From NCBI GenBank assembly GCA_017503005.1, contig JAFVTW010000011.1:1-57696 (forward strand): a stretch of DNA of 57,696 bases, read 5' to 3'. The notes below the pieces were generated by a model. That model had not been told where the DNA came from. It ran no database searches and saw only the letters and a list, made by a program, of their open reading frames with translations. Below, piece after piece: positions 15,169-31,811 of the stretch (positions within the stretch are counted from its first letter, which is position 1; each line of letters starts with the position of its first letter). The stretch is from Clostridia bacterium. GTDB taxonomy: Bacteria > Bacillota > Clostridia > Christensenellales > UBA1242. The position numbers and the translations under genes are program-made.

Positions 15169-16257
15169 CTAAAAACCAAGAAATTGCATTAGTGTATTAG
15201 TAATCCAGAAGAATATAGACAAACCTATAGAGCCAAAGAAAATGATTTTTTCTTCTTTTGTCCAACCTGTGGTTTCACTATCTATTATATTAGACTCACT
15301 TGCAATTATTTCTTTATTTTTACCTTTTTTGGTAAGTTTAACTTCGTCAGGAGTATTTTTTGCTTCTTCTGCAAGTTCCTTAACTGCAGCTTTTAATTCG
15401 TCACTTGTTTGCAACTTGTCCAAATATTGAAGCACATATATCAAACCGATAATGATACAACCCGCAATAACAAACCACATTATAGGAGAAACATAATCCC
15501 AAAGTGTGGTATATATAGATACTTGATTTGGATCGATACCTTTAAGTGTGTATATAAAAGATGTAATAACTACAACCAAGTTGTTGATAAAGTGCAACAA
15601 GATAGGATATATAATGCTTTTGCCATAATACATAGCATAGCCTAATAATGTGCCCAAAATAAATTGATAAACAGTTTGTTGTAAACTACCATGCAACAAT
15701 GTAAACATAGCAGCACTAATCAAAATAGATACATGTGGACCAAATTTGGTTTGTACACCCTTTAGTATCAAACCACGGAATAGTAATTCTTCACAGATAG
15801 CAGGAAGAACTGCCATGGTAATAATGCCGATAATAAATGTAAGAACATTAGTCATCTCGTATGGCAAATCATTTTTTGGATTGTACCCTACAAAAGTAAA
15901 CAAGTGATCTATTAATGAAATCATAGGAGATACCAAGAATACAGCTGTTACAGCTATAACCACTACAGTCAAAGCCTTCAACCAGTTTATCTTTAATCTA
16001 ACTTGCGAAGCATAAATCATATTAATATTATTCTTTCTGCAGTACAAGAAGTAAATCAAGAAGAATGTGCCCGGCACAAAAGCCATATTTACTACCTTTT
16101 CAAATTGTGTGCCGTCTAGTTTGAATATAAAAAATATAATAGCCAAAACAAAGGAAACTAAGAATGGAAAAATAAGTGAATAAATAAAATTTAATCCACT
16201 ATCTTTCAAATTGAAACAATTTCGCATACTTTGAGCTTTAAATTCTTTTTCGTCCAT
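15169..16257 (-). CDS. CPBP family intramembrane metalloprotease, paralogue
   Basis: 362 residues, about eight membrane segments. Motifs: CEELLFRG (near residue 160), a TLLHGS segment and HFINNLVV, matching PF02517. A charged soluble stretch (about 275-330) precedes a final membrane helix, as in the downstream paralogue, so the pair shares an unusual C-terminal architecture and probably arose by duplication. The terminator between them suggests they are expressed separately at least in part. Confidence 0.9.
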   Translation of the reverse strand: MDEKEFKAQSMRNCFNLKDSGLNFIYSLIFPFLVSFVLAIIFFIFKLDGTQFEKVVNMAFVPGTFFLIYFLYCRKNNINMIYASQVRLKINWLKALTVVVIAVTAVFLVSPMISLIDHLFTFVGYNPKNDLPYEMTNVLTFIIGIITMAVLPAICEELLFRGLILKGVQTKFGPHVSILISAAMFTLLHGSLQQTVYQFILGTLLGYAMYYGKSIIYPILLHFINNLVVVITSFIYTLKGIDPNQVSIYTTLWDYVSPIMWFVIAGCIIIGLIYVLQYLDKLQTSDELKAAVKELAEEAKNTPDEVKLTKKGKNKEIIASESNIIDSETTGWTKEEKIIFFGSIGLSIFFWITNTLMQFLGF

Positions 16258-16399
16258 ATCTATAACCTTTTGAATAATTTCGAAATTTCCACCACTAACT
16301 TCTAAAAGTATAACACAACAAATCTAAAAGTAAAAATATTAATAAACTATTTATATATAAATTTATATATAAAAACACCAGATGGCGGATAAAAAAATA

Positions 16400-16430
16400 A
16401 AAAACCACATAACTAAATGTGGTTTATTTT
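16400..16430 (-). terminator. Terminator of the WalJ-like gene
   Basis: A 9-bp stem (16402-16410 with 16417-16425) followed on the minus strand by T-rich sequence; the stop codon of the WalJ-like gene overlaps the stem. Confidence 0.8.
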
Positions 16431-17218
16431 ATAACAAATACTGTTCCCAAATTGTTTTGAGGTGCAACATCTATTTTAATATTTACATTTGGAACTATAC
16501 CCATAGCTTCTAAATACTCACATACTGTTTGGTAACACAGTTGTGGAGTATTGTTTTCTGGGCTAAGATGTGCTAGCACTACCTGCTTCACATTTGATGT
16601 AGCTAGAGCACATACTACCTTTGCACAATTTACATTGCTTAGGTGTCCGTTCTTACTCAAAATTCTGTGCTTTAAGTGGTCAGAATAATTTGTGTTAGCT
16701 ATAAGCATTTTTTCATCGTGATTACTTTCTAAGATTACCAACTTGCAGTTTTTCAAATTTTCTATAGTTTGCTCACTAGCAAAACCCAAGTCTGTAGCAT
16801 AAGCAAACTTTGGACCACCATTGTGAATTACAAACCCACAACAAGTTACAGAATCGTGTGGTAGCTTAAATGGTTTAATCACAAATTCGTCTATAGCAAA
16901 TTCTTGTTCGTAAAAATAGAAAATTTTACTTTGGTCTACATTACCTATTTTTGAAACCATAGCCTGCACACCATCGTGATGACAATACAATAGTGCCCCA
17001 TACTTTCTCATAAATGGACCAACACTCTTTGAATGGTCAGAATGTTCGTGAGTAGACAAAATTGCTTTGATGCTGCTAGGATCAACATCAAGCAATTTTA
17101 ATTTTTCTATTAAGGTGTTTAGACTAATTCCAGCATCGATAAGAATGTTTGTATTCTCTCCACACACAAGCACAGAGTTGCCTTTACTAGAACTAGATAA
17201 TGTAACTACTTTCATCAT
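16424..17218 (-). CDS. MBL-fold metallohydrolase, WalJ/YycJ-like
   Basis: 264 residues. The metallo-beta-lactamase metal motif is STHEHSDH (near residue 55-62), with downstream metal ligands in LPHDS, the ATDLG Asp and the ESNHDE and HLS segments. The opening SSSSKGNSVLV is typical of the YycJ/WalJ family, which is linked to the WalRK cell-wall regulatory locus, where rlmH also lies in B. subtilis; rlmH is 3 kb downstream here. No walR or walK is visible in the window. The substrate is unknown; nuclease activity has been proposed for the family. Confidence 0.88.
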   Translation of the reverse strand: MMKVVTLSSSSKGNSVLVCGENTNILIDAGISLNTLIEKLKLLDVDPSSIKAILSTHEHSDHSKSVGPFMRKYGALLYCHHDGVQAMVSKIGNVDQSKIFYFYEQEFAIDEFVIKPFKLPHDSVTCCGFVIHNGGPKFAYATDLGFASEQTIENLKNCKLVILESNHDEKMLIANTNYSDHLKHRILSKNGHLSNVNCAKVVCALATSNVKQVVLAHLSPENNTPQLCYQTVCEYLEAMGIVPNVNIKIDVAPQNNLGTVFVIK

Positions 17219-17300
17219 ATTGTTTTTCTCTCAAAGTTAGTTTAGCATATAGCAACCACATTAATCAAATTGTTTAGCTAAAATATACTCAACCTTTTTG

Positions 17301-18782
17301 TTAGTCCATAGTTACTATTACACACTTGCCTTCTAACCATGTATTTATGTAACTAACTAATTCTCTACCTGTAACTTTTTCTAGTGCAGACACCAAAATT
17401 TCTGGTGTAACATTAGTAAACATATTTTCTGCATAATAGGTTTTCAAAGTTGAAATTAACTTATCTCTGCCAACAACTTCAGCGATATTGTCAAAAAGTA
17501 GCATTCCTTTTACATAAGTCATATACACATACTCTGGTTCGGTATTGTACTCGTCTAGACTTCTATTCATAGAAGTATCCACTTTGCCAAGCACATCGGT
17601 ATACAAATCCACAAATGTTACAAAGCTGTTATTTGTATTTTTGACCAACTCTACTGGGTCTACATTGTAGTCTGGATTTTCTTGGTAGAACAATACACAT
17701 GAGTATTCTGTAAGGCCTTCGTCCAACCACGGAAATCTAAATGCATTTGAACCTACTACACCATACCACCACTGATGAGCTATCTCGTGTATTATTACAT
17801 TTGTATAATCTGCACCTTCCACCACATCTGATATATACACCATATTAGGGTATTCCATACCACCATGCACGAAGTTCGTTTTGACTACTGACAATGTAGA
17901 ATATGGGTACTTGCCAAATAATCTATTGAATGTATTTAGAGCATCTACACCTGCTTGCAGATTTGATTTGTAATCTTCGTCATCGTAGTAATAATACAGC
18001 ACTGTAGTGTCTTCTACCTGTTCGCTAGCAACTTCAAACTTTTCACTCATTACAAATGCAAAATCTCTTACTGCTTTAGCATTAATAGTATAAGTAGTAT
18101 TATCTTCCAGAGTTGTAGAATTTGTCTGCACACCAGTACTTGCAACCTTGTAGCTTGTAGGAATAGTCAATGTGACATCATAGTTCGAGCACTCTGAGTA
18201 AAATGGGTCACCATTAGAATTGTATGGGTCAAGCACAAATTCACCATCTTCTATTACAGCTACTACAGGATAGAAATTTGCCATATTGACGGCATTGTCG
18301 CCATACCCAAAGCGATGATTGATATTTGGTACATACACTTTGTATTCTAGTGATATAGTTACTTTGTCGCATGGTTCTAATTCTTCTAATAGTCCAACTG
18401 TCAAAATGTTGTTGTCAAGCCCGGACAAATTAAACTCTGTTCTCTCACCATTTATACTAGCACTAATTATGTCAATATCTCCATAACTTGGACCATTAGG
18501 ATATGCTTTGGTTTCGTTAGTAGAACTTACAGGTTTGTTTACTGCCCCCTTTGTAAAAGCCTTAGGATACAAATGAAAACATATAGTTTTTAGATTTGTA
18601 TCACTATTGTTTGTATACCTAAGTGTCTGTGAACCATTCAATGTATGGTCATCATTATATATTAAATTCATAGTATAAGTATTGAGATTTTTGCTCACTT
18701 TGTCTAGATTGACATCACCATTCTTAGCACAACCACACAACACTAATACACACATAGCAAAAACTGCAAATAATCTTTTCAT
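17301..18782 (-). CDS. M1 family metallopeptidase, lipoprotein
   Basis: 493 residues. A signal peptide with lipobox ending at Cys18 suggests attachment to the outer face of the membrane. The N-terminal beta domain is followed by a gluzincin domain with the exopeptidase motif GGMEYP, zinc site HEIAH and the third ligand Glu 19 residues after the second His (LDEGLTEY). This is the catalytic half of an aminopeptidase N-type enzyme; the C-terminal HEAT-like domain of the roughly 850-residue forms is missing, as in other short extracellular M1 proteins. It probably trims extracellular peptides. The ribosome binding site is GGGGGAG. Confidence 0.92.
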   Translation of the reverse strand: MKRLFAVFAMCVLVLCGCAKNGDVNLDKVSKNLNTYTMNLIYNDDHTLNGSQTLRYTNNSDTNLKTICFHLYPKAFTKGAVNKPVSSTNETKAYPNGPSYGDIDIISASINGERTEFNLSGLDNNILTVGLLEELEPCDKVTISLEYKVYVPNINHRFGYGDNAVNMANFYPVVAVIEDGEFVLDPYNSNGDPFYSECSNYDVTLTIPTSYKVASTGVQTNSTTLEDNTTYTINAKAVRDFAFVMSEKFEVASEQVEDTTVLYYYYDDEDYKSNLQAGVDALNTFNRLFGKYPYSTLSVVKTNFVHGGMEYPNMVYISDVVEGADYTNVIIHEIAHQWWYGVVGSNAFRFPWLDEGLTEYSCVLFYQENPDYNVDPVELVKNTNNSFVTFVDLYTDVLGKVDTSMNRSLDEYNTEPEYVYMTYVKGMLLFDNIAEVVGRDKLISTLKTYYAENMFTNVTPEILVSALEKVTGRELVSYINTWLEGKCVIVTMD

Positions 18783-18873
18783 ATCTCCCCCAGCATAAGT
18801 ATTTGTATATTGTATGGGGAGAAAAATGAATTTAGAACATATAATATGGTGGTTTAGTGAACAAACTTTTGAT

Positions 18874-18902
18874 TTGACAAAAGAGATTTATTGGGCTAAA
18901 AT
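18874..18902 (+). promoter_or_regulatory. SigA-type promoter of the 18920 gene
   Basis: TTGACA at 18874-18879, a 17-base spacer and TAAAAT at 18897-18902. The expected start lies just before the AGGAG ribosome binding site at 18910-18914, giving a very short leader. Confidence 0.8.
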
Positions 18903-18919
18903 AGTACACAGGAGATTTT

Positions 18920-19600
18920 ATGAAACAAAGTAGAAGAAGAATTTTAAAAAAATTAAAGAAAAATGCAGCCATTAAGGAAGCACAAGAGCTAGACTACAAC
19001 AAAGACGGCTCTGTACAAATTCCAGTAGGTTTAAAAGAAGCTGGAGATTTCTTTCACCCATACTCTTACTTAACATACGAAATTATGAATCCTTCTGTAA
19101 AAGATTATATCGAAACATTTGAAGCTACCATACCTGCAGAAGACAATGTAACTGTAGACATATATACCGAAACTCAAACCACACAAGAAGAGAAAAAGAG
19201 AATTAGAAGAACAGTAAAAAGACACTATGCGGAAGAAATTGTTGCCGGTGAAGAACAACTAAAAAAAGAAACCGGCAAAGCAATTTGGTTTTGTGTGATA
19301 GGATTTATAATACTACTAGCAGAAGCTATACTATATCATTTCTTAGAAAATATGTATCTAGACACCATTCTAGCAGTAATAGGCTGGTTGTTCCTGTGGG
19401 ACGGACTAGAAGTACTACTATATGAAAGAGCTGGTATTAGAGCCCAGTTGATAAGGTCGTACAGACTACTAAATGCCAAAGTACATGTAAGAAACTATAG
19501 TCAAAAAATCAAAAGAGAATATGGTATAGAAGACGAAGAGGAAGAAGACGAAGAAGAAGACATTCCTCAAATCAAAACTACAGAAAAAGATACAAAATAA
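18920..19600 (+). CDS. Two-TM protein of unknown function
   Basis: 226 residues, not recognised. The N-terminus is strongly basic (residues 1-18), followed by a soluble part to about 118, two membrane segments (about 122-140 and 148-166) and a cytoplasmic C-terminal part ending in a Glu/Asp-rich stretch (205-214). Topology would leave both ends inside. It is a single-gene unit with a consensus promoter and its own terminator. The composition matches neighbouring genes, so it is not an obvious transfer. Confidence 0.85.
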   Translation: MKQSRRRILKKLKKNAAIKEAQELDYNKDGSVQIPVGLKEAGDFFHPYSYLTYEIMNPSVKDYIETFEATIPAEDNVTVDIYTETQTTQEEKKRIRRTVKRHYAEEIVAGEEQLKKETGKAIWFCVIGFIILLAEAILYHFLENMYLDTILAVIGWLFLWDGLEVLLYERAGIRAQLIRSYRLLNAKVHVRNYSQKIKREYGIEDEEEEDEEEDIPQIKTTEKDTK

Positions 19601-19628
19601 AAAGAACACCTATATGGTGTTCTTTTTG
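19600..19628 (+). terminator. Terminator of the two-TM gene
   Basis: An 11-bp stem (19600-19610 with 19616-19626), 5-base loop, then T run. It starts at the stop codon. Confidence 0.9.
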
Positions 19629-19744
19629 TCTATAGTGGCAGTTTAGCATAACATATGAAATATATATAATCTGTCCAAACAAGCTTTTATATGGGCAAAT
19701 TTGAGCTTTTACATATATTTATCTATCCAGTTATTCAAAACAAC

Positions 19745-19773
19745 AAAAAAGAGCGAAAATTTCGCTCTTTTTT
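19745..19773. terminator. Terminator of the Ig-lipoprotein operon
   Basis: A perfect hairpin, GAGCGAAA (19751-19758) with TTTCGCTC (19760-19767), flanked by A6 and T6. It is about 25 bases past the stop of the 1000-residue lipoprotein on the minus strand and can act in both directions. Confidence 0.9.
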
Positions 19774-19798
19774 GTTTATAAAACTCATCGTATACAGC

Positions 19799-22700
19799 TT
19801 ATGCTGCAGGTGTATATGGGAATAATTCCATCATAGCACCAAAGCCATTAGCCATATATACATTTAAGTATGTAGAACCAGTAGCAGCTTTTGCAAATAC
19901 TGCACCTGAACCAGCATCAGATAAGTCAACTCTGTTTGGATAGCCATCGCCTAAACCAACACTATAACCATTTGTAGAGTTTTCGAATCTAACCATTTCT
20001 GGAGCAGTTGAATTCATTTGAGATTCAACTAATTTTACTTTTTGAGTATATGCACCGTTAGCAGGGTCATAATTGAATGGTTGATCCATATCACCAGTCA
20101 TTACAATTGAACGGTCATAACCAAAGTATGTAGGATTGTTTGTATCATCAGCATCATAGTATGCTTCGTATTGAGCCTTTGTATCAAACTTACGAACAGT
20201 ACCACGAGTGAATACTGCTACTTCTTTGAATTCTTTTGCTCCCCATTTGTGTAATACAACTAGGTTTGTAGCATTTGGAATACCCTCATAGTTCTTTAGG
20301 AATGAAGACACACCTGCTGCTGTGAATGCTTGGTTTGCAGTAACAATTTGTGCAAATTGAGCTGTAGCACCAGGATATGTAGCAAACCATGCTTCTAGAC
20401 CATTTACATAACTTTCCATCTTAGAATTGTAAATGTCGATTTCTGGAGCATGTCCACCACTACCCATTAAGTAATGGAAGTAGTTTTCGCTAGAAGCACC
20501 CATTGGATGGTCTGGAGTACTAAATGCTTCGTAATCACCTGTTTGATGGTCTGTAACAATTACTGGGCCACCAGCACCTATAAATTCACAATCACCGATT
20601 ACAATGTTTGGAGTTCCCCAGAAATACATAAGAGAACTATAGTTGTTGTAACCTTTTGATTTTAGAATGTTTGTGTGGCTATTTCTTTCAGTACCATTAT
20701 TGATAATATTTGTCCAAGCCGCAAATTTTTGAGCAAAATCTGGAGCAGTCATATCTGTTGGGAATGGTTGAATACCTGTTTGGTCATAACCATATTCTGT
20801 CATCCAACCGATAAACCAGTCTTTGTTGATTGTATTAACTACATCTAAGTTTACACTTTCAGATTTTAGTAAGATAATTCCACCTGAAGCAAGTGGGTCT
20901 ACTGAACGACGACCATTACCGATAAAATATGTATCTTGAACAGTTAATTTACCAGTAGAAGATGTATGTACAGCACCATCGTTACAATTGATAAGTTGAC
21001 CACCTTCCATTTTTCCACCTTGAACTTTAAATAAAGCTGTATGTGTAGTTAAATAGCTATGTCCGTTTACACTATCAATCCAGATACCATTACCATCTGT
21101 ATCAGAAACAACTGAACGAGATAAACCTTTAACTTCTACTTCATTTTTATTATTTACTTTGTCAGCAACACTGATATCGAAGTAGTTACCATGGATATCA
21201 AATGTTTCGCCATCTTTTAGATAACGGAAGTAAAGCATATCATCATCACCAGCACCATCTTTTAATGAGCCTACAGGTTCTAAATTTGTTTTACTCATTA
21301 ATTCTGGATCAGCATCTACTTCTGCTTGAGTATAGAAGAATTTATCAGGAATAACATCATCTGTTACATGAATAGAATTTTGAAGAACTAAAGCTTTTGT
21401 AGTTACATTGGTAAAGCCCCATTCTTCTTTTAATTCTGTCCAAGCACCATCAATATTTGCATTGTCAAACAATGACAATTCTTTAGCTTCGTATACATTG
21501 TAACCATCAACTACATCAAATGTTAAATCGAATGATGGAGTACCCTCAAAGTAGTCTGGGTCAAAGTTTGTAGCAGATACTGTAACTTTGAATTTTTTAC
21601 CTACAGCTTCTTGACTAAAGTCAACACTTGTATATGTAGTAGCTTCTACATATTCTGTCATTTCTTGAGGAGTCAAATCTACAGGAGTACTATTTTCAAC
21701 TTTTTGAACTTTAACCTCTGTTTTAACACCCTTAATACCTTCAACAATATTGCCATCTACAACACCTAAAGCATTGATTCTAAAGTCAAATGCATTATCA
21801 TCACCAACTTTATGTGTTTTTGTACGATCCATAAATTCTGTTTCTTTATTTGCTTTTACAGCACTGTTACGAACAAATTCATCTTCTAAATCACTACTAA
21901 ATCCTGTAAGAATGATTTTTTGTTCTTCAGGAACTGGATTTACCACAATTTGTACATAGAAAACAAATTCTGTGTCTCTTAAATTGTTGTTGTACTCGTA
22001 TGTTACTGCAATTGTCTTTGTGCCTACAGTTGTTAGATCTAAGTTAGCTGTATTGAAGTCTGCAGCATCTAGTTCTACAGTTTCGCTAGTACCATCATCA
22101 TATGTGATTAAAGCAGTCGCATTGTCTAATCCCAACTCTGCAATTGTAGCACCTTCGATAACTGTATCTACGATACTACCTTTTGTAATTACAGCACTTG
22201 CAACTTCAACCACAGCATCTTCTGGGTCTGCAACTACATCGATTTTGATTTCGAATTGATATCCATCATAAGTAATCTTAAGTGGTTTGTCTTCACCTAC
22301 AGTAGTAAGGTCTAATGTAGCCATATTGAAACCTAAGTCTGCAGCTGCAACTTCTTTTTGTTCACCATTTGAATAATTAACTACTGCTACTGCATTAGTT
22401 AAGTTTAGTGCACTACCTACTACTACAGAAGTATTTACTGTACCAGCTTTGATATATGCAGATGTTACATGAGGTTTTACTACATCGATTTCAACTGCAA
22501 ATTCAAAATCACCATATTTTACTTTAAGTTGTTTATCGTTACCGATAGTACTTAAATCAATATCACCAAATGACAATTTGCTAGCATCTACTTCGATTTG
22601 GCTACCATCAGAAAATTTGATAACAGCTTTAGCATTGTTCAAATTAAGATCAGTTTTTGCTGAGCCACGATCAACAGTAGTAACAATTGTACCTTCTTTT

Positions 22701-22801
22701 ATGTGAGCACTAACAATGGTTGGCTCGCCACAAGCAACTAGTAGTAAGCTTGCAAACAAGCAAATCATAATAGAACTGACATATTTTACTAGTTTTTTCA
22801 T
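19799..22801 (-). CDS. Large surface lipoprotein with three Ig-like repeats and beta-helix-like body
   Basis: 1000 residues. Lipobox LVAC (Cys24) predicts lipid anchoring outside the cell. Three tandem repeats of about 85-95 residues follow (about 27-110, 110-192, 195-290), each with an xxAxI(K/T)xGT/S opening, a YSDGS-like turn, a DLxTxG segment and a closing VKY/ITY strand; this is the pattern of bacterial Ig-like group 3 (PF07523) domains. Another Ig-like segment (about 295-440) leads into a repetitive strand-rich region (about 440-780) resembling a right-handed beta-helix. No catalytic motif is visible. It is the last gene of the operon with the YwaF-ABC fusion, permease and small anchored protein. 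It could be an adhesin, a glycan-binding protein or the client of the exporter. Confidence 0.85.
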   Translation of the reverse strand: MKKLVKYVSSIMICLFASLLLVACGEPTIVSAHIKEGTIVTTVDRGSAKTDLNLNNAKAVIKFSDGSQIEVDASKLSFGDIDLSTIGNDKQLKVKYGDFEFAVEIDVVKPHVTSAYIKAGTVNTSVVVGSALNLTNAVAVVNYSNGEQKEVAAADLGFNMATLDLTTVGEDKPLKITYDGYQFEIKIDVVADPEDAVVEVASAVITKGSIVDTVIEGATIAELGLDNATALITYDDGTSETVELDAADFNTANLDLTTVGTKTIAVTYEYNNNLRDTEFVFYVQIVVNPVPEEQKIILTGFSSDLEDEFVRNSAVKANKETEFMDRTKTHKVGDDNAFDFRINALGVVDGNIVEGIKGVKTEVKVQKVENSTPVDLTPQEMTEYVEATTYTSVDFSQEAVGKKFKVTVSATNFDPDYFEGTPSFDLTFDVVDGYNVYEAKELSLFDNANIDGAWTELKEEWGFTNVTTKALVLQNSIHVTDDVIPDKFFYTQAEVDADPELMSKTNLEPVGSLKDGAGDDDMLYFRYLKDGETFDIHGNYFDISVADKVNNKNEVEVKGLSRSVVSDTDGNGIWIDSVNGHSYLTTHTALFKVQGGKMEGGQLINCNDGAVHTSSTGKLTVQDTYFIGNGRRSVDPLASGGIILLKSESVNLDVVNTINKDWFIGWMTEYGYDQTGIQPFPTDMTAPDFAQKFAAWTNIINNGTERNSHTNILKSKGYNNYSSLMYFWGTPNIVIGDCEFIGAGGPVIVTDHQTGDYEAFSTPDHPMGASSENYFHYLMGSGGHAPEIDIYNSKMESYVNGLEAWFATYPGATAQFAQIVTANQAFTAAGVSSFLKNYEGIPNATNLVVLHKWGAKEFKEVAVFTRGTVRKFDTKAQYEAYYDADDTNNPTYFGYDRSIVMTGDMDQPFNYDPANGAYTQKVKLVESQMNSTAPEMVRFENSTNGYSVGLGDGYPNRVDLSDAGSGAVFAKAATGSTYLNVYMANGFGAMMELFPYTPAA

Positions 22802-22861
22802 GTTTTTCTCCTTTTTGTAATATTTATATAAAGTAAGTTCTAGTTCTTACGATATACCATT

Positions 22862-23308
22862 TTAATAAGCCCATACCAGCACTGAGGTAAGAACTTTTGT
22901 GCCATCGGTAGATATTATATCAATATTTACCATGGCTTTACCAGAAAATAGAATAAGACCTGTTTCGTTGCCTTCGGCATCTTTGAACATTTCGATATGA
23001 TCTTTATTCCCTCTGATGTTGAATTCAACATCTTTTACTGTTGCATTATCTGGAGCAACTCTCCATTGTAATTGAAGCATTGTACCTGTAAGATTTACAG
23101 GGTCAGCTGCTTCGGTAAATTTTATTTTTATAGTTTTCTTTCCATTATTTTCGGTCACTGTGCAATTTTCATCAGTTTCGTTGAGACACTCGATATATGC
23201 AGTGTTTATTTTTTCGTTGTATATCTTTACATTCATACCAAACAAGTTAATGATAGGAATAGAAGCAATATATATAATAATGATAATAATTAATGTTGAT
23301 TTCTTCAT
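22862..23308 (-). CDS. Small membrane-anchored extracellular protein, unknown
   Basis: 148 residues: one N-terminal membrane segment (about 4-25) and an extracellular strand-rich domain that looks like a single Ig-like or similar beta-sandwich (KTIKIKF, TMLQLQWRV, DVEFNIRG, ILFSG, MVNIDII strands). Two Cys near residues 39 and 48 could form a disulphide. It begins 1 base after the stop of the ABC permease and ends 60 bases before the large Ig-lipoprotein, so it belongs to the same operon. Not recognised as a named family. Confidence 0.82.
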   Translation of the reverse strand: MKKSTLIIIIIIYIASIPIINLFGMNVKIYNEKINTAYIECLNETDENCTVTENNGKKTIKIKFTEAADPVNLTGTMLQLQWRVAPDNATVKDVEFNIRGNKDHIEMFKDAEGNETGLILFSGKAMVNIDIISTDGTKVLTSVLVWAY

Positions 23309-23309
23309 A

Positions 23310-24953
23310 TTACTTCTCCTTATAGTATACCTTTATTTTCATAATGTAGAAATATAGTCTTACCATAAAGAATATAATTCCTAATATCATAGCCTTAATC
23401 CAGAATGTTACAACACCTTCACCAATAAGTGCAAACACCAAAAATGCCATAAATGCAGATAGCAAAAATGCATATAATGTAGATTTTACTTCATTTGGAT
23501 TGTTTGTATGAGTACCTGTAGCAGCATATTGTGCTATTTGTGGATTCATAATATCTAGTTCGGCACTCCATAGTAGGTGTCCTAGGTAGAATCCTTCTAG
23601 ACAGAAGAACAGCATTGTACTATCTATCAAACCACTAGCATAAGTATCTAGTACAAACACTGTGGCAATTAGTGAGATAGTCATAACCACTGCATTAGGT
23701 ATAATTTTTGCAAACAAGGTGCTGTAGTATGACTTTGGATTGGTCTTTAGAAGATATGCAGCATTGCCATCTTCACTATAAACTCTAGCCATAGTTACAC
23801 TAGAACTTAGTAGTAGTAGCATAGTTACTAATACATTGAATGTAATAGTCATATATGCACCTTGCAATCTGGTATCCATAGCTCCATAAATTTTGTTTAG
23901 AAGCAATATTGCTATAGGCATACCGATTGCCACACCTAAAAGTGAGAATAGTTTTGTTGAATTTCTTAGGTACAACAAAATTTCAGTTTTAAGTGATGAG
24001 AAGAAACTAAATGTTCTTCTATTTACTTTGTGTCTCTCTTTGTAAGATCTCTTATACTCAAAAGGTGAACTTGCAAAGTGGAAGAATAATGGACGGACAA
24101 TCAAGTAACAAAGTCCTATAAGTGCCGCAATAGTACCTACTACACCTAGTATACATAACCATTGTTTGCCATATAGGAAGTGATGAGCTACACCATAACG
24201 GTATCCTACCACACTCTCCATTACCCAACTAAACGGAAGGAATGTTTGACTAAATACTGTCATAAAGTCTTGGATTTGCCAGAAGGTAGTTCCCCAACTT
24301 TCGATAATATTTAAGTCTGATGGAATCATATTGATAACAGATACGATTCCCCATACAGCTACTGCTATAATTCCTACAACAAGTATATATAGTAAATATT
24401 TGAAATTACGGAATATAGTACTTAAGAACATAGCAGGAATTGATAGTAGTGCTCCACCCATTACTGTAAGGCCTGTAATCCAAGTCATCGCTAGGAGTGC
24501 CCACAAATAATAGTAGATAGCATATCCATTAACCATACCAAATGCTACAAATACAGGTAGCATAAATGTAAGGTTACGAATAAATTCATATATGTAATAA
24601 ACAATAATCTTACTAAAGAAAATGTTTATTCTGCTAGTAGGCATAGTAAGTAACACTTGATTGTCTTTAGCATAATAAAGTGCTTTTACTAGTCCTACAG
24701 TACAGGTAAGGAAGGACAAACTAAGCATTACTGTAAACATAATAAGCAAGAATTTGTCTGGAATACCTGCACCTAAGCTGATAAGTCTAAGCATAGACAA
24801 TACTGACATACCAACATAAACCAAACCAGTTATTATTACAAATTTTAAAATGGTAAATATAGATTTAAATAAAGTAGCTTTCCAGTTAGCTTTAGGGTTA
24901 AAATCTAATTTATCCTTAAGTTGCATCGCAACTAATGGTATCAATGTTTTCAT
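23310..24953 (-). CDS. ABC exporter permease
   Basis: 547 residues with about 12 membrane segments. The opening MKTLIPLVAMQLKDK and the segment around ALYYAKDNQVLLTMPTSRINIFFSK match a clostridial ABC-2-like permease family (PF16949-type): the conserved region precedes the third membrane helix and is thought to contact the ATPase. Its ATG overlaps the end of the fused YwaF-ABC gene by 4 bases (ATGA), showing that the two form a transporter. The small 148-residue protein follows 1 base later. Confidence 0.85.
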   Translation of the reverse strand: MKTLIPLVAMQLKDKLDFNPKANWKATLFKSIFTILKFVIITGLVYVGMSVLSMLRLISLGAGIPDKFLLIMFTVMLSLSFLTCTVGLVKALYYAKDNQVLLTMPTSRINIFFSKIIVYYIYEFIRNLTFMLPVFVAFGMVNGYAIYYYLWALLAMTWITGLTVMGGALLSIPAMFLSTIFRNFKYLLYILVVGIIAVAVWGIVSVINMIPSDLNIIESWGTTFWQIQDFMTVFSQTFLPFSWVMESVVGYRYGVAHHFLYGKQWLCILGVVGTIAALIGLCYLIVRPLFFHFASSPFEYKRSYKERHKVNRRTFSFFSSLKTEILLYLRNSTKLFSLLGVAIGMPIAILLLNKIYGAMDTRLQGAYMTITFNVLVTMLLLLSSSVTMARVYSEDGNAAYLLKTNPKSYYSTLFAKIIPNAVVMTISLIATVFVLDTYASGLIDSTMLFFCLEGFYLGHLLWSAELDIMNPQIAQYAATGTHTNNPNEVKSTLYAFLLSAFMAFLVFALIGEGVVTFWIKAMILGIIFFMVRLYFYIMKIKVYYKEK

Positions 24954-27298
24954 TTATCACCCTTAGCCTTTTTACTTTTTTTAACTGGTTTTTCTGGGTC
25001 GTTTAATTTATCTTCGATTTCGTTCTTTTGTTTTTGAACCATCTCTGTTTCAAGTTTCTCAATTTTAGAAACATCTTGGTCAATTTTTTCTAGTTTCTTT
25101 TCTATCTTCTTCTCTAATTTTTTGTAGCCCTCTGGGTCGATTGTTTTTAGATAGAATTGTTCTAGTCCACAATCTTCTTCGATTTCTTTCATGGTCTTTA
25201 CTGTAAGGATATCACCTTTTTTGATGATAGCTATTCTATCACAGATAGTTTCTACTACATCGATAATGTGGCTACTAAAGAATACAATGTTGCCTTCTTT
25301 AGCATGTTGTCTCATACACTCTTTTACTTGGAAAATACTGTTTGGATCTAGACCAGTAAGTGGTTCGTCCAATATCCATAGTTTAGGATTGTGTACAAGT
25401 GCTGACATAATTGTAATTTTTTGTTTCATACCATGACTGTATGTCTTGATAGGATTGTCGATAGCTGTTTCTAATTCGAATAACTTGGTGTATTTGTCGA
25501 TAGATTTGGTTCTATCTTCTTTAGACACATCATATAGGTCTGCAATATAGTTGATATATTCTCTACCTGTAAGTTTTTCATACAAAGCATAATGGTCAGG
25601 AACAAAGCCTATGTTTCGTTTTGCCATAACTGGCTCTTTGTCTACATCAAAGCCACAAACCTTGATAGTTCCACTAGTGATAGGTTGAATACCTACGATG
25701 CTCTTGATAATAGTACTCTTACCTGCACCATTGTGTCCTAAGAAACCAAATATTTCGCCACCGTTGATTTCTAAGTTTGCATCTTTTACTGCATAACTTT
25801 TGCTAGTACCATATTTCTTTGAAAAGTTTATTAATTCTAATTTTGTTTTAGCATCTTGAGCCATTTGACTTCTGCTCCTTTCGATTTTTGATATTTCTAA
25901 AGCAAGTTTATCCATTTTGATTTTTCTATTTCTAGATACGATGTCTCCCATCATATCTGCAAAAGCATATCCTTGTTCGTACACAAACCACATCGCAAGT
26001 CCCAACAGTACATAAACTAAGAAGAACAATACCTGATATAGTGGGTGGAATACGAATTCAAGATCGCCTATATTGAATGCCCATGTTCCTTTAAACAAGT
26101 TTTGAGCCCATGTCCCTAATTTTTCTGCTATAAAGTCACTATTTGTAAAGAAGAAGTCTACTTCACCGTAGTTGCTAAACCAAGCATTAAATATAAGAAC
26201 TAGTACAAAGTAAATTCCAAAGCCAACCATAGAATATTTAAATTGTTTTAGCTTTGGTCTTTCGTACACTCTAAGTGCTACTATAAGTAGTGGCATAAAG
26301 AATGCAATATAGTGGTTTATATAGAAGTTTACTACTCTAAAGCTAAAAATGTTTGATGCAGCATCATAGTTTGGCATAGCCATAGCTAAAAATGCACCTA
26401 ATACATTGATAAAGTATGTAAAGTAAAATAATTTTTCCCATTTAAATATCAAACATAGTGGGATAATATACATAGCTGTATTACACAAGTGTATAGGCCA
26501 GTCAGTCACATTTGTAAAATCCATAAATTTGTTATTTATACTAAATGATAACAATGTACCTAAACTAATATATAGTAAAATACCCCTAATAGCTTCTTTG
26601 TCTTTCTTTCTAAGCAAGAAGTAAAGTGCTACAGGTAAGATAACCGAAATGTAAAGAATAATTCTGTGATATGGTGCAAACTTTGTAACTGAGAACACAT
26701 ATTTAGATTCTCCAAACAATGCTCTAATCATATACCCTGGCATTGTAGCAAGTAACATACCAACTATGTAAACTAGTCCCCACAAATCTTTAGCTTTGAT
26801 TTTAAAACAATCATTTTCAGCAAATACTACTGCACAGTAGGCAATTACCATACCGAATTCAATACCCATAAGTAGAGTTCTTACATTGAATCCAGTATAA
26901 GCATCTGCTCCCACAACACCAAGTGTCAATGTATCTACAAATACTGCACTAACTATACCTACAATCAACCCATAATACTTGATAACAAAAGCATATTTGC
27001 TATCTGCAAAGAATGGATACAATATAAGTAGTAGTACAACCGAATACATTGCCCAGTTTAGTATCAAGCTAACTGCTGTAAGAGCTGTATTTGGAATAGG
27101 TGAATTACCTAGAGCAAGTATAGAGTCTAAACTGTCTCTACCTAGCATAAACCTAAACAAAAATACTGCAGCAAGCACTAGCGATGTAGCCTTAAAGACT
27201 TTACTGTTTAACTTAACTCCCTTAAATCTAAGAATGAAGTATGTGCCTAATAGCAATAGCATTGTTGCTATCATGCTCACTATTTGAATAATCTGCAT
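24950..27298 (-). CDS. Fusion of YwaF/TMEM164-type membrane domain with ABC ATPase
   Basis: 782 residues. Residues 1-460 contain about 12 to 14 membrane segments; the second half of this region matches the TIGR02206/YwaF (TMEM164-like) family, best seen in FTNVTDWPIHLCNTAMYIIPL and the FTYFINVLGAFLAM helix, with a final FHPLYQVLFFLVYVLLG segment. Residues about 480-700 are a full ABC ATPase: Walker A GHNGAGKST (near 519), a Q-loop replaced by the FVPDHYALYEKLT segment, signature YSHGMKQK, Walker B LWILDEPLTGLD and the switch His in FFSSH. A Lys/Glu-rich coiled coil (about 705-782) follows. TMEM164-like proteins are integral membrane proteins, some acyltransferases; linkage to an ABC ATPase is unusual. 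It leads the operon with the permease and Ig proteins. GAGGGG precedes the ATG. Confidence 0.9.
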   Translation of the reverse strand: MQIIQIVSMIATMLLLLGTYFILRFKGVKLNSKVFKATSLVLAAVFLFRFMLGRDSLDSILALGNSPIPNTALTAVSLILNWAMYSVVLLLILYPFFADSKYAFVIKYYGLIVGIVSAVFVDTLTLGVVGADAYTGFNVRTLLMGIEFGMVIAYCAVVFAENDCFKIKAKDLWGLVYIVGMLLATMPGYMIRALFGESKYVFSVTKFAPYHRIILYISVILPVALYFLLRKKDKEAIRGILLYISLGTLLSFSINNKFMDFTNVTDWPIHLCNTAMYIIPLCLIFKWEKLFYFTYFINVLGAFLAMAMPNYDAASNIFSFRVVNFYINHYIAFFMPLLIVALRVYERPKLKQFKYSMVGFGIYFVLVLIFNAWFSNYGEVDFFFTNSDFIAEKLGTWAQNLFKGTWAFNIGDLEFVFHPLYQVLFFLVYVLLGLAMWFVYEQGYAFADMMGDIVSRNRKIKMDKLALEISKIERSRSQMAQDAKTKLELINFSKKYGTSKSYAVKDANLEINGGEIFGFLGHNGAGKSTIIKSIVGIQPITSGTIKVCGFDVDKEPVMAKRNIGFVPDHYALYEKLTGREYINYIADLYDVSKEDRTKSIDKYTKLFELETAIDNPIKTYSHGMKQKITIMSALVHNPKLWILDEPLTGLDPNSIFQVKECMRQHAKEGNIVFFSSHIIDVVETICDRIAIIKKGDILTVKTMKEIEEDCGLEQFYLKTIDPEGYKKLEKKIEKKLEKIDQDVSKIEKLETEMVQKQKNEIEDKLNDPEKPVKKSKKAKGDK

Positions 27299-27473
27299 AA
27301 TCCCCTCGAAAAGTGTATTTAATAATAGTTTTTGATTACATATATAAAAATATACTATAGTATTTAAATATATAAATAATCATTATAGTTGCAAATATTA
27401 GTTGCAATCTTTCCCTATTTCTAAATATTTAACCTTATAATACCCTAATTTTCTGTTTCCCTTAAAACAAAAA

Positions 27474-27505
27474 AGTAAAAGCCAAAAATACAACTTTTAC
27501 TAATA
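27474..27505 (-). terminator. Minus-strand terminator inside the gap
   Basis: On the minus strand AGTAAAAG (27501-27494), an 12-base loop, CTTTTACT (27481-27474) and a T run. It lies about 240 bases past the nearest minus-strand gene, so it would end either a long 3' untranslated region or a separate RNA covering the inverted repeat. Confidence 0.6.
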
Positions 27506-27540
27506 AGCAGCAAAAAAGGAACTTGATAGGTTTATTTCAA

Positions 27541-27655
27541 GTTTTGCACAAAAATATAAGGTATTTAAAGATTTTTCTTTTAGTCAGTCGTAGAAACCAG
27601 CCGTTTTTAGCAATCTTATATTTAAATATCTCATATTTAAAAAAGTGCAAAAAAC
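27541..27655. repeat. Long imperfect inverted repeat
   Basis: The left arm 27541-27575 and right arm 27611-27655 are imperfect reverse complements: both arms contain a TTTTGCAC element at the outer end and an ATATAAG/ATATGAG plus ATTTAAA element inside. The loop is about 35 bases. It could be an RNA hairpin, a small miniature-element remnant or a regulatory site. Confidence 0.5.
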
Positions 27656-27739
27656 TCGCCACCCATTTTGGTTCCGAGAAATGCTGCCAAAAGACTAGTG
27701 TAATCCCCTACTTTACACTAACCTTTTGATATTCAGTTT

Positions 27740-28180
27740 TTAACACAAAAATTTAGATTGAACAATATAAACTGCATGATAGTTTGCAGATTGTTTTTTA
27801 GTTAAAGAGAACTTTCTTTGTTTGTTTTCCTTTGATACTCTAGTCAAAGTTTTTACAAAGAATATAAAAACTAATGGTAGCAATACAAATGCAACCAAGA
27901 TTTTGATAATGATAAAAATAAAGTTAAATGATTGAAGAAGCTCCAACATTGCTTTAGAAGAAATAACTAGTTCTGTCAAACTTCTATTGATATTTGTAAG
28001 ACTTCTAACATTTAATGGCTCTAATAAAATACGAATTTCGTTGATTATGCCGTTTTCAAAACTACAAAAGGCAATTGCAGTTAATATTGCTAACTGCAAC
28101 ACAAAAATTACACCCTTTTTATTAAAAAATGCCTTAAGTTGAGCCTTTTTAATAGCCCACCAATTTTTCAAGCCTTGCAT
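27740..28180 (-). CDS. Two-TM protein of unknown function
   Basis: 146 residues: a basic amphipathic N-terminus, a first membrane segment (about 24-42), an extracellular helical stretch (about 45-83), a second, long hydrophobic segment (about 84-110) and a basic C-terminal tail. Not recognised. It stands alone: the enoate reductase upstream has its own terminator, so a promoter in 28181-28285 is expected. Moderate confidence that it is real, from its hydrophobicity pattern and positive-inside charge layout. Confidence 0.7.
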   Translation of the reverse strand: MQGLKNWWAIKKAQLKAFFNKKGVIFVLQLAILTAIAFCSFENGIINEIRILLEPLNVRSLTNINRSLTELVISSKAMLELLQSFNFIFIIIKILVAFVLLPLVFIFFVKTLTRVSKENKQRKFSLTKKQSANYHAVYIVQSKFLC

Positions 28181-28285
28181 AAACCCCTAAAATCCGCATA
28201 TTTTTAATTATACTTACACCTAATTTATCATATTTTTCCACTTTTTTCAACTTTAAAAAGCAAAAAAACTATTTTTTATTACAAT

Positions 28286-28322
28286 AAAAAAGCAAGACTG
28301 TAATCAATCTTGCTCTTTTTTT
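28286..28322 (-). terminator. Terminator of the enoate reductase gene
   Basis: Stem AGCAAGA (28291-28297) with TCTTGCT (28308-28314), extended by two inner pairs, flanked by A and T runs; it is immediately past the stop codon. Confidence 0.85.
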
Positions 28323-28332
28323 TGTTTAATCA

Positions 28333-30387
28333 TTAAAACTTGATTGCAACATCCCAAGCTCTCCAAATTACACTTCTTAGGTTACCTACTTGTAGAGCAT
28401 CACCTACGATGTGTACATGTTTAGCTGCTTTTGCAACTGGAGCAGGATTGTAACCTACTGCCATAATTACATCGTTGCATTTTACTTCTGTTTCTGTACC
28501 ATCTTTTGCTTTAATAGTTACTTTACCCTTCTCTATAGCAGAACAGGTACTTTCTAGATATACAGGAACTTTGTGTAGTTTGAAGTAATCACGAAGATAT
28601 GATGAATTTGCCAAACTTAAATTATTAGCAATCATAAGATCGTTTCTACCTTCTATAATGATAGGATTTTTACCCTTTAAGTGTAAGTCGTATGCGATTT
28701 CGCAACCAGTTAGTCCGCCACCTACAACAACTACTGTTTTGCCCACTTTTTCTCTGCCTAATAGATAATCTACAGCATCAATAGCAGTTTCTACACCAGG
28801 GATAGGGATTCTTTTTGCCTTGCTACCAGTAGCAACTACAATTTCGTCAGCATCAATTTTAGACAAATCTGTAACTTCGGTGTTGTAATGAACTTCTATA
28901 TTCATTTTTTCCATTTGACGACGATACCACTCAATTAGTCTCTTGTCTGCTTCTTTAAAGTCTGGAGCAGCAGCAGCGATGAATACACCACCTAGTTTGT
29001 CTGTCTTTTCGTAAATCTCAGCCTTGTGACCACGAAGAGTAGCTACACGAGCAACTTCCATACCACCTATACCACCACCGATAATAGCTATCTTTTTAGA
29101 TTTTTTAGCTGGAATTAGGTCGTATTTACCACCGTCCATAGACATAGGGTTTAGAGCACAACGAGACATGTGCATAGAATCAGCCATAGCACAAGCATTT
29201 GCTACACCATTGTAGTGTGACATTGTTAGACAAGCATTGTGACAATGGATACATGGCATAATATCATCTTCTTCACCATTAATTAGTTTGGTTACCCAAT
29301 GACTATCAACTAGGAATTGTCTAGCCACACCCATACCATCAATTTCGCCATTTTTGATAGCTTCTGCACTGATAGCTGGAGTCATTTTGCCAGCACATAC
29401 TACTGGAATATCTACAAATTTGCGGATATGTTTACAATCTTCTAAGTTGCATGCTGTAGGCATATATACTGGAGGATGTGCCCAGTACCAAGCATCGTAT
29501 GTGCCATTATCTGCATTAAGCATATCGTAACCAGCATCTTGTAGATACTTAGCAGCTTTTTCACTTTCAGCCATATCGCGACCTACTTCTTTGAATTCTT
29601 CGCCAGGCATAGCACCTTCGCAGAATCCTTTGGTTTTACTTACTACAGAGTATCTTACTGATACAGGATAATCTTCGCCACAAGCTGCCTTGATAGCTTT
29701 TACAATTTCTACAGGGAAACGATATCTATTTTCAAAACTTCCGCCGTATTCGTCTGTTCTTTGGTTTGTGTATTCGGTAGTAAATTGGTCAATCAAATAA
29801 CCTTCGTGCACAGCATGAATTTCTACACCATCTACACCAGCTTCTTTACACATTTTAGCTGTTTTTGCAAATCCTTCTACGATTTGATTGATTTCTTTCT
29901 TGGTAATTTCTCTACATGTAAGTTCTGGAGCCCAACGAAGTGGCAACTTGCTAGGAGCAGCACACAAACGAGAAATATCAAAAATAGGTTTTACTATTGC
30001 ACCCAAAACTTTGTTCTTTAGCATAGCTGTCATACCATTAGGTATAGAGAAAGAACGGCCAAAACCAGCTGTAAGTTGAATAAACATCTTAGCTCCAGTT
30101 TTGTGGAATTCTACCATATAGTCTTTTAGTTTTTTGAAAGCACCTTTAGCCTTGTACAACCAGCCATTACCAATCATATTTCTAAGTGGTGCAATACCAG
30201 GAATAATTAAGCCAACATTGTTTTTGGCTAAATCCATAAAGAAATCAGCAGCATCTTTGTCGAAATGATGAGGTTCCATCCAACCAAAGATAGAAGTACC
30301 ACCCATAGGACAAAGCACGATTCTGTTTTTGATTTCTACATTACCTACCTTCCATGGAGTAAATAATGGTTCGTATTTTTTATCCAT
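28333..30387 (-). CDS. NADH:flavin oxidoreductase / enoate reductase with FeS cluster
   Basis: About 684 residues, the size of 2,4-dienoyl-CoA reductase (FadH), BaiCD and BaiH. The N-terminal FMN TIM barrel (about 1-360; PLFTPWKVGNVEIKNRIV and GVDGVEIHAVHEGYLIDQFT) is followed by a 4Fe-4S site (CIHCHNAC then a further Cys) and an FAD/NAD(P)-binding half (KIAIIGGGIGGMEVA; VVVVGGGLTGCEIA). It reduces activated C=C bonds with NAD(P)H; the substrate (dienoyl-CoA, cinnamate or a bile-acid enone) cannot be told. The ATG at 30387 has AGGAG 8 bases upstream; an in-frame start ten codons earlier has none. A promoter fits just upstream and the gene is monocistronic. Confidence 0.93.
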   Translation of the reverse strand: MDKKYEPLFTPWKVGNVEIKNRIVLCPMGGTSIFGWMEPHHFDKDAADFFMDLAKNNVGLIIPGIAPLRNMIGNGWLYKAKGAFKKLKDYMVEFHKTGAKMFIQLTAGFGRSFSIPNGMTAMLKNKVLGAIVKPIFDISRLCAAPSKLPLRWAPELTCREITKKEINQIVEGFAKTAKMCKEAGVDGVEIHAVHEGYLIDQFTTEYTNQRTDEYGGSFENRYRFPVEIVKAIKAACGEDYPVSVRYSVVSKTKGFCEGAMPGEEFKEVGRDMAESEKAAKYLQDAGYDMLNADNGTYDAWYWAHPPVYMPTACNLEDCKHIRKFVDIPVVCAGKMTPAISAEAIKNGEIDGMGVARQFLVDSHWVTKLINGEEDDIMPCIHCHNACLTMSHYNGVANACAMADSMHMSRCALNPMSMDGGKYDLIPAKKSKKIAIIGGGIGGMEVARVATLRGHKAEIYEKTDKLGGVFIAAAAPDFKEADKRLIEWYRRQMEKMNIEVHYNTEVTDLSKIDADEIVVATGSKAKRIPIPGVETAIDAVDYLLGREKVGKTVVVVGGGLTGCEIAYDLHLKGKNPIIIEGRNDLMIANNLSLANSSYLRDYFKLHKVPVYLESTCSAIEKGKVTIKAKDGTETEVKCNDVIMAVGYNPAPVAKAAKHVHIVGDALQVGNLRSVIWRAWDVAIKF

Positions 30388-30426
30388 AAACATTCTCCTT
30401 ACACACATACAAGCCACACTACTTGT

Positions 30427-30456
30427 ATTATAATCGTTACTTAAAATTTAAATCAA
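30427..30456 (-). promoter_or_regulatory. Promoter of the enoate reductase gene
   Basis: On the minus strand TTGATT (30456-30451), an 18-base spacer and a perfect TATAAT (30432-30427). It sits about 40 bases before the start codon. Confidence 0.65.
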
Positions 30457-30591
30457 AACACAAAAAAAGTCAAACATAGTAAATTGATTTAATTAATAAT
30501 TAATTAAAAATATGAGAATTGCCAAATTTAATATACAAAAACATATCAATTTTGTAGAATAATATTAACAACAAACTATAAGGATGAAAAC

Positions 30592-31431
30592 ATGGAACAT
30601 TTTACATTTACAAAACCAGGCAGAGAATGGAACGAAGACAGAGTATACTCTTGTGACGACTTTGCCTTTGTACTAGATGGTGCCACCTGTCTATTTAATG
30701 ACCACTATTCAAAATTTGATACAGATGCCGAGTGGTACTCAAACTGGTGGTGCGAATACCTAAAAAAATCATTAGGCAACACAAAAAAAGAGATACCTGA
30801 CATACTAAAAGCAGGCATTAAAAAAGTAGTCAAAGATTATCAAAAACTAGCTAAAGACAATGTAATAGAAGATTTCCCTAGTTCTACAGTAAGTATAGTA
30901 AGAAGGAACAACGGAATGTTAGAGTTTTACTCACTAACCGATAGCAGTATGGTTGTACTATCAAAATCTGGAATTTGTATAACAATACAAGAACAAGGAA
31001 ACACAGTAAAAGATGCTTTTACCATAATGAAAGTATTAGACACAGGCAAAAAACACAATATGCCACTAATGGAGGCTAGACACAAATTTGGAGAAATTGT
31101 TCAACAAGCTAGAATTAGGAAAAATCAATTTGCTTTAGGCGGATACTATGTACTAGCCGATAGCGAAGAAGCTATCAACCATGGTATATATGCCTCTGTA
31201 GAAGAAGCCCTGATTGACAAAATTCTTATACTAAGTGATGGCTACTCACAAGTTTATGATGTAGTCAAATTTATGCCGCCAGAAAAGTTAATCAAAAAAA
31301 TTAACAGCTATGCCGATGCAGAAAAAATTTACAATAAATTAGTAAAGTATCAACAAAAAGATAAACTTGCAAAAAAATACTATAGATTTAAAGTAAGTGA
31401 CGACACATCTTTGGCTTATTTAAAGTTTTAA
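30592..31431 (+). CDS. PP2C-type protein serine/threonine phosphatase
   Basis: 279 residues with the spaced PP2C motifs: NEDR (14-17), FVLDGAT (26-32), PSSTVSIVR (near 98), a LTDSS strand, LILSDGY (near 216-222) and SDDTS (269-273), which supply the metal-binding Asp residues. The family dephosphorylates serine/threonine kinase targets or anti-sigma antagonists; there is no kinase next door. It has its own ribosome binding site (AAGGATG) and terminator, and looks monocistronic. The first metal Asp of the DRVG motif is present, so catalysis is plausible. Confidence 0.85.
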   Translation: MEHFTFTKPGREWNEDRVYSCDDFAFVLDGATCLFNDHYSKFDTDAEWYSNWWCEYLKKSLGNTKKEIPDILKAGIKKVVKDYQKLAKDNVIEDFPSSTVSIVRRNNGMLEFYSLTDSSMVVLSKSGICITIQEQGNTVKDAFTIMKVLDTGKKHNMPLMEARHKFGEIVQQARIRKNQFALGGYYVLADSEEAINHGIYASVEEALIDKILILSDGYSQVYDVVKFMPPEKLIKKINSYADAEKIYNKLVKYQQKDKLAKKYYRFKVSDDTSLAYLKF

Positions 31432-31440
31432 TTAAAAACA

Positions 31441-31470
31441 AAAAAACACCCTATATTTAGGGTGTTTTTA
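31441..31470. terminator. Bidirectional terminator
   Basis: A perfect 11-bp stem (31443-31453 with 31458-31468) and 4-base loop between the convergent PP2C gene and the 102-residue gene. Confidence 0.9.
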
Positions 31471-31482
31471 TTTAACCTTATA

Positions 31483-31791: not shown

Positions 31792-31811
31792 TTCCCTGTT
31801 TCCACCTTTTA

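Follow-up and report, generated by a model that had tools for sequence, protein, structure and literature searches.

A conserved four-gene cassette of uncultured, mostly clostridial bacteria linking a YwaF-ABC ATPase fusion with a permease and two surface proteins

In the available text of PMC12345273, TMEM164 is described as an acyltransferase acting between phospholipids, and LhaT as the Bacillus enzyme responsible for N-acetylation of lipoproteins, its donor being an acetylated lipid whose synthesis involves PcrB. The TMEM164/YwaF superfamily has medically interesting members, TMEM164 in ferroptosis and LhaT in lipoprotein recognition. The role of its bacterial YwaF branch seems undescribed, as the open-licence literature (YwaF, TIGR02206) held only one mention, in a genome-engineering context. 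Two other kinds of described system are close to the locus presented here: nosDFY, an ABC-type transporter (ABC, ATP-binding cassette) according to the available text of PMC6530538, and the genes for Cas11b and RpnS, in which, as stated in the available parts of PMC11899642 and PMC10327210, an in-frame internal start gives part of the protein as a separate product. Here we describe a cassette of four genes in which a YwaF domain is fused to an ABC ATPase and is followed by a permease and two surface proteins. The stretch analysed, called the window, was a whole contig of 57.7 kb (57,696 nucleotides) from a 1.23-Mb clostridial genome in 24 contigs, 94% complete (G000, the own genome). The features of the locus were as follows.

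24950..27298, minus strand: gene 1, polytopic membrane domain of YwaF/TMEM164 (ATGY) type with an ABC ATPase on the same chain, 782 amino acids (aa); open reading frame (ORF) and Pfam.
23310..24953, minus strand: gene 2, ABC-2-type permease, 547 aa, roughly 11-13 hydrophobic segments; PF16949 above cut-off.
22862..23308, minus strand: gene 3, small protein with an N-terminal membrane anchor and a Big_2-like immunoglobulin-like (Ig) domain, 148 aa; family profile and hydrophobicity.
19799..22801, minus strand: gene 4, lipoprotein with lipobox Cys24, an Ig-like (Big_3-type) stalk to about residue 290 and a conserved head, 1000 aa; alignment and Pfam.
25865..25882, minus strand: putative internal Shine-Dalgarno sequence (GAAAGGAG, 25882-25875) and spacer in gene 1; duplex energy.
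24950..25864, minus strand: nested frame for a predicted free ABC ATPase, 304 aa, starting at Met479 of gene 1; sequence only.
19742..19776, minus strand: hairpin of 16 pairs resembling an intrinsic terminator, with a T-run, downstream of gene 4; consensus scan.

The fusion resembles the TMEM164/ATGY acyltransferases, including LhaT (YpjA), in matching the TMEM164 profile well above the cut-off, in its polytopic membrane domain and in an invariant Cys and His; unlike them, it carries an ABC ATPase on the same chain and stands in a transporter operon. LhaT is a DUF1405 protein, and DUF1405 was not among the seven Pfam families matching the fusion at E<=1. By motifs and gene order the ATPase and the PF16949 permease are like ABC-2-type exporters, which in contrast have no fused membrane enzyme, internal start or two dedicated surface proteins. 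With NosDFY the cassette shares the grouping, in one operon, of an ATPase, an ABC-2-type permease and an extracytoplasmic protein whose beta-helix matches are weak, but that protein has no NosD family match and is lipid-anchored with an Ig stalk, and an acyltransferase domain and an Ig anchor protein are added. Taken singly, the components are of known kinds. Among the papers listed in searches of the open-licence literature, none described their combination, the dedicated surface pair or the gene-within-gene ATPase.

The ORF coordinates bore out the gene order, spacing and minus-strand orientation given in a first-pass annotation of this DNA: genes 1 and 2 overlap by 4 bases, and gaps of 1 and 60 bases separate genes 2 and 3 and genes 3 and 4. 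Co-occurrence of the four families in this order in relatives, which that annotation had proposed as a check, was examined by scanning bacterial and archaeal genome contigs with the permease profile. The scan gave 75 loci in 74 genomes (L084 and L137 share one), all metagenome-assembled genomes or metagenome bins by title. Most titles named Clostridia, Clostridiales or Christensenella, nine of the 75 named Bacilli, Bacillales or Erysipelotrichia, and the hosts are uncultured, mostly gut-type bacteria. Partner genes were sought in plus-strand frames with profiles built in this analysis, and a locus entered a count only if its contig extended 2300 bases upstream of the permease, or 600 or 1800 bases downstream of it; loci on shorter contigs were set aside. 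At these testable loci the fusion was found in 69/69, the small protein in 66/66, the lipoprotein in 59/62 (missed in L092, L093 and L146) and all four genes in 55/57. We concluded from this sequence comparison that the four genes are passed on together as one block.

The linkage was also followed from the lipoprotein side. Matches confined to the stalk, being generic Ig repeats, did not enter the count; a match beyond the stalk (E<=1e-10, model position above 200) was present in 32 of 119 relatives' genomes, and 31 of these 32 also had the permease. The two genes lay on the same contig in 29 genomes and on different contigs in two (G025, G035), where both were situated at contig ends. The remaining genome (G024) had the lipoprotein core and no permease match, and its copy was a remnant of 237 aa that adjoined, at the end of a contig, a YwaF fragment of 69 aa. 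Two observations had been named beforehand as speaking against a joint system, a lack of joint conservation in relatives and an Ig-lipoprotein occurring regularly without the transporter, and neither was made. At E<=1e-60, a threshold that also admits an unfused paralogue type, the permease was matched in 102 of 309 same-family genomes, and at E<=1e-40 only one of 398 genomes across the phylum matched, the own genome, with the best few candidates per genome scored. On these counts we regard the system as patchy and concentrated in few lineages, yet it is tightly kept together.

In five distant relatives (L063, L064, L065, L068 and L069) a single ORF of 746-1052 aa joins the small-protein domain (E-values from 1e-13 to 5e-3) to the lipoprotein head (4e-23 to 6e-7). 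These joined ORFs begin with a membrane anchor and have no lipobox, whereas the separate lipoproteins keep the lipobox Cys; thus anchor and lipid seem to be alternative means of holding one and the same arm. Joint work of the exporter with the two surface proteins, as previously suggested, is supported by the linkage and by these five polypeptides, the joint action itself being read from linkage.

Within gene 1, immediately 5' of the ATPase domain and in frame, the window carries GAAAGGAGCAGAAGTCAAATG, in which Met479 at 25864 would start a product of 304 aa. The first-pass annotation had correctly called both domains of the YwaF-ABC ATPase fusion, which Pfam recovers, but had overlooked this start, which is conserved. 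After redundancy filtering, which kept 72 of 74 fusion genes, 70 of the 72 including the window had an in-frame start codon at the junction (65 ATG, 2 GTG and 3 TTG). The mean pairing energy with the 16S tail was -8.1 kcal/mol at the junction and -3.8 when the peptide was recoded synonymously; where several start codons lay close by, the best one was taken for data and null alike. The junction lay under its own null mean in 68/70 genes (Wilcoxon 5e-13), and 24/70 reached p<=0.05 singly; the window copy, with a duplex energy of -8.2, had p 0.1 alone against its synonymous recodings. An energy of -7 or lower was found at 48/70 junction starts but at 2.3% of 1338 other internal Met codons, which were taken as single positions, and an energy of -6 or lower in 65/72 fusions but in 3/29 ordinary exporters with fused membrane and ATPase domains; the junction position and the energy cut-offs were set after a first look at the data, and the exporter control was the last of four versions, with 29 of 30 sequences usable.

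The median energy at the junction (-8.1) was close to those at the real starts of 63 small proteins (-8.2) and 44 lipoproteins (-8.3), and that of 36 permeases was -5.9; only ORFs whose longest-frame start coincided with the profile start entered this control. Additionally, the codon AGG was used for 32 of 50 Arg residues at the junction and for 234 of 1732 elsewhere, and the junction was less structured than other Met sites, with means of -2.8 and -5.9 kcal/mol, a difference to which composition may contribute. Judged by these predicted energies, the Shine-Dalgarno sequence at the internal start is stronger than the protein sequence requires and as strong as those of real starts. We concluded that the gene 1 ORF probably gives two products, the full fusion and a free ATPase. 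As Cas11b and RpnS show, in-frame nested genes are workable in prokaryotes; unlike in those cases, the nested product here is predicted from sequence and concerns an ABC ATPase. Searches of the open-licence literature aimed at a bacterial ABC ATPase made from an internal start listed no such case.

The membrane part of gene 1 matched TMEM164/YwaF (PF14808) with 73.7 bits (cut-off 25) at residues 211-414, and the ATPase part matched ABC_tran with 97.8 bits (cut-off 25) at residues 505-647. Cys272 and His329 were invariant in 36/36 fusions and in 10/10 aligned YwaF sequences; the latter include six stand-alone paralogues of the own genome and cover 8/9 of its YwaF matches. Such invariance suggests chemistry. 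A conserved Cys and His are to be expected at the acyltransferase site of TMEM164/YwaF, and the YwaF domain is therefore a putative membrane-embedded Cys/His acyltransferase. Internal duplication of the membrane part was weak at best. The ATPase motifs are complete, with Walker A, signature (SHGMKQK), Walker B/D-loop and the H-loop His677 invariant in 31 aligned fusions (alignment A4, 30 of 65 complete fusion ORFs and the window copy); identity of the fusions to the window copy falls as low as 41%. Its best NCBIfam matches, all below cut-off, include the exporter ATPases drrA and GldA. In PADLOC, eight families matched the ATPase part of the fusion only, the best being mad3 (3.4e-22), and no match was obtained for the permease, the small protein or the lipoprotein. 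The own genome contains nine TMEM164/YwaF matches in 1.23 Mb (L001-L008 and C1:41651-42280), which is striking for such a size; the six viewed in context are stand-alone genes of 245-294 aa.

The permease matched PF16949 with 36 bits (cut-off 25.7), and its profile found nothing better than E 0.64 among solved structures. For the window copies of genes 3 and 4 no Pfam family exceeded its cut-off. A single hydrophobic segment, at residue 14, marks the N-terminal part of the small protein. In its family (alignment A5, 41 of 62 and the window copy) Big_2 was matched by 10/42 members at E<=0.1, the best at 1e-5 and the window copy not among them, and the family profile matched the solved structure 7quz at 5.9e-5.

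For the lipoprotein, 43 of 52 complete sequences and the window copy were aligned (A3), and the lipobox Cys24 was invariant in all 44. Big_3 was matched by 32/44 members, again without the window copy, in which a profile search placed three matches in the stalk; against solved structures the stalk profile found 2l7y (5.7e-8, Ig-like part only). The Ig stalk is confined to about the first 290 residues, and the other approximately 700 form a different, conserved head. The fusion, permease, anchored small protein and lipoprotein had thus been named correctly by the earlier reading of the sequence, but its "Ig-repeat lipoprotein" is mostly non-Ig. The invariant residues of the head are mostly Gly and Asn, with Phe395 in addition and Trp805 and Phe806 nearly invariant, and no invariant acid or His was found among the 44 aligned heads. 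Matches to a right-handed beta-helix were weak: Beta_helix (PF13229) was found in 5/44 at E<=0.1, the best at 0.0029, and in one distant relative at 1.8e-4. Across 54 complete ORFs of more than 600 aa, the lipoprotein measures 674-1439 aa, a range presumably due mainly to the stalk. At two loci (L087:10222-12671 and L224:3519-6320) the lipoprotein gene was split into two consecutive ORFs, by a frameshift, an assembly error or a real split.

A second, distant clade of fusions was examined afterwards, over a wider position range and with no synonymous null run. In 10/11 of these an ATG is placed 35 residues ahead of Walker A, with energies from -5.4 to -11.6, and the -35 position is the start of the free ATPase in an unfused operon of the own genome (L070). 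The ATPase thus has its own start in both fusion clades, and we read this as selection favouring a free ATPase alongside the fused form. The unfused operon (G000:C20, L070:4396-12032) codes for YwaF (493 aa), ATPase (240 aa), permease (533 aa), an Ig protein (309 aa), which is a two-domain Ig anchor protein, and a lipoprotein (948 aa). YwaF and ATPase are neighbours with a 9-base gap in L070 and within a few bases in L213. The alignment of the lipoprotein profile with the L070 and L213 lipoproteins was limited to the signal/lipobox region, whereas a profile search gave a weak head match (1e-8) for that of L070; the L070 head is therefore only a candidate homologue. In the ATPase tree, for which the unfused ATPase at the greatest distance served as an arbitrary root, the 72 near fusions fall into a single group (support 0.71).

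At six further loci (L214, L215, L216, L217, L225 and L227) ATPase-PF16949 permease pairs were followed by membrane- or lipid-anchored Ig-repeat proteins, that of L216 having 2093 aa and 12 repeat matches, and no YwaF was detected directly adjoining. These loci perhaps represent an older core of the system.

The four-gene system is well supported, and our confidence in its mechanism is moderate to low. We favour, at somewhat less than even confidence, the reading that the cassette would encode one dedicated envelope machine composed of a lipid-modifying enzyme, an ATP-driven transporter and two surface proteins. Its centre would be an ABC-2-type exporter or flippase with a Cys/His membrane acyltransferase attached to its ATPase. 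The permease, which probably combines two halves of six helices each in a single chain, would bind two ATPase domains, one in the full-length fusion and one started internally and free, so that the ABC exporter or flippase would be asymmetric. The YwaF domain, related to TMEM164 and LhaT in the ATGY superfamily, would be held adjacent by the fusion and could act on a membrane substrate presented by the transporter. The Big_2 anchor protein and the stalked, possibly beta-helical lipoprotein may form an extracytoplasmic arm, which could receive or hold the product or could itself be modified by it; candidate substrates are a lipid, an acyl carrier or a lipoprotein N-terminus. A more specific form of this proposal, which we put forward tentatively and consider rather unlikely, is an ATP-powered acyl-transfer machine, in which the transporter would couple ATP hydrolysis to the TMEM164-type acyltransferase, pass the acylated product to the surface lipoprotein and use two unequal ATPase subunits from one gene.

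Several observations weigh against the reading as one dedicated machine. Two loci (L092 and L093) have no lipoprotein beside the small protein, other genes following it there, one of them in L093 phosphoglycerate mutase-like by eye, and L146 has only an Ig-repeat ORF, which the contig end truncates. The duplication of permease halves was weakly suggested (12% probability). The fusions are not one clean clade in the ATPase tree, where the smallest group holding all of them (support 0.82) includes four unfused ATPases, and therefore fusion arose twice or was undone. As some related ATPase-permease pairs have Ig or anchor proteins without an adjoining YwaF, the acyltransferase may be accessory, and the twofold range in lipoprotein length argues against a rigid contact between head and permease. 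Finally, a LhaT-type pathway, the only bacterial ATGY pathway described in the available text of PMC12345273, was rejected because PcrB had no match in the own genome, which is 94% complete; the same search was positive in 7/14 control genomes. The acyl donor would thus have to differ. Lgt is present in the own genome.

NosDFY is known for its beta-helix periplasmic subunit and its working cycle. A cycle of this kind, which we think unlikely here, would mean that the ABC pair exports nothing and drives shape changes in a bound beta-helical lipoprotein; the lipoprotein would pass a ligand on to a further surface molecule, and the YwaF domain would be a mere membrane anchor or regulator. The conserved operon does place an ATPase, an ABC-2-type permease and a surface protein with weak beta-helix similarity together, and a head with mostly Gly and Asn as invariants, lacking an invariant acid or His, suits binding or structure more than catalysis. 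However, no NosD model was among the NCBIfam matches of the 44 lipoproteins at E<=0.01, the indication of a beta-helical head comes from the weak profile matches, the lipoprotein varies twofold in length, and the chemistry suggested by the invariant YwaF Cys and His would be left unexplained. Less probable still is work on a surface polymer or glycolipid, with YwaF acylating, the ABC pair flipping and the two surface proteins binding or trimming outside. Carbohydrate-binding surface proteins often contain Big_2/Big_3 domains and beta-helices, and this, together with the drrA and GldA matches of the ATPase, speaks for such a role; but the lipoprotein matches in Pfam and NCBIfam included no lyase or epimerase family, and the flanking ORFs, compared without family annotation, vary in size and order between loci, so that a glycan gene common to the loci is still conceivable elsewhere.

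The internal start might instead be a relic of a once-separate ATPase gene, or only aid translation of the fusion, the fused protein alone being functional. The unfused neighbours in L070 and L213 make an origin of this kind conceivable, as a fusion could arise through stop-codon loss beside an existing start. At divergence down to 41% identity synonymous drift would be expected, yet the site beats its recodings in nearly every gene, and a start with a Shine-Dalgarno sequence is also present in the -35 clade; we judge this explanation distinctly improbable. Hardly credible at all, in our view, is a common drug or peptide exporter whose tight operon merely happens to include surface genes unrelated to it. 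Similarity of the ATPase to drrA and the tight packing of genes in small genomes would fit it, but both surface genes are linked in nearly every testable locus and are fused to each other in distant relatives.

A four-gene transcription unit is plausible because of the hairpin after gene 4 and the 441 bases between gene 1 and the nearest upstream gene. The terminator scan of both strands found 5 candidates and 3.2 +/- 2.1 in shuffles, which alone is not significant, and its sole further match on the minus strand lies inside gene 4. An Rfam scan of 16000-32000 gave no match at gathering scores.

Upstream of the cassette, the window contains a protein of membrane type (27740-28180, 146 aa, no family match above cut-off) and a flavoenzyme resembling BaiCD and bilirubin reductase (28333-30417; 334 and 350 bits, below cut-offs). 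A relative of the former was found upstream of the cassette in L039, L040, L041 and L047, and the BaiCD-like flavoenzyme also adjoins the cassette in the same-genus relatives L039, L040 and L047 and in L043. Downstream, at 17301-18782, lies a protein with an M1 peptidase domain (PF01433, 68.5 bits) and, by eye, a lipobox-like N-terminus.

More than 60 species-level genomes have, in this cassette, a YwaF domain joined with a transporter and a pair of surface partners, and this makes the function of the cassette testable. The conserved internal start would mean one gene giving two ATPase forms and may explain how an ABC transporter could be built asymmetrically; to our knowledge it would be the first ABC transporter whose ATPase is supplied both fused and free from one ORF. 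If the cassette does encode an ATP-powered acyl-transfer machine, it would represent a new kind of envelope-modifying machine.

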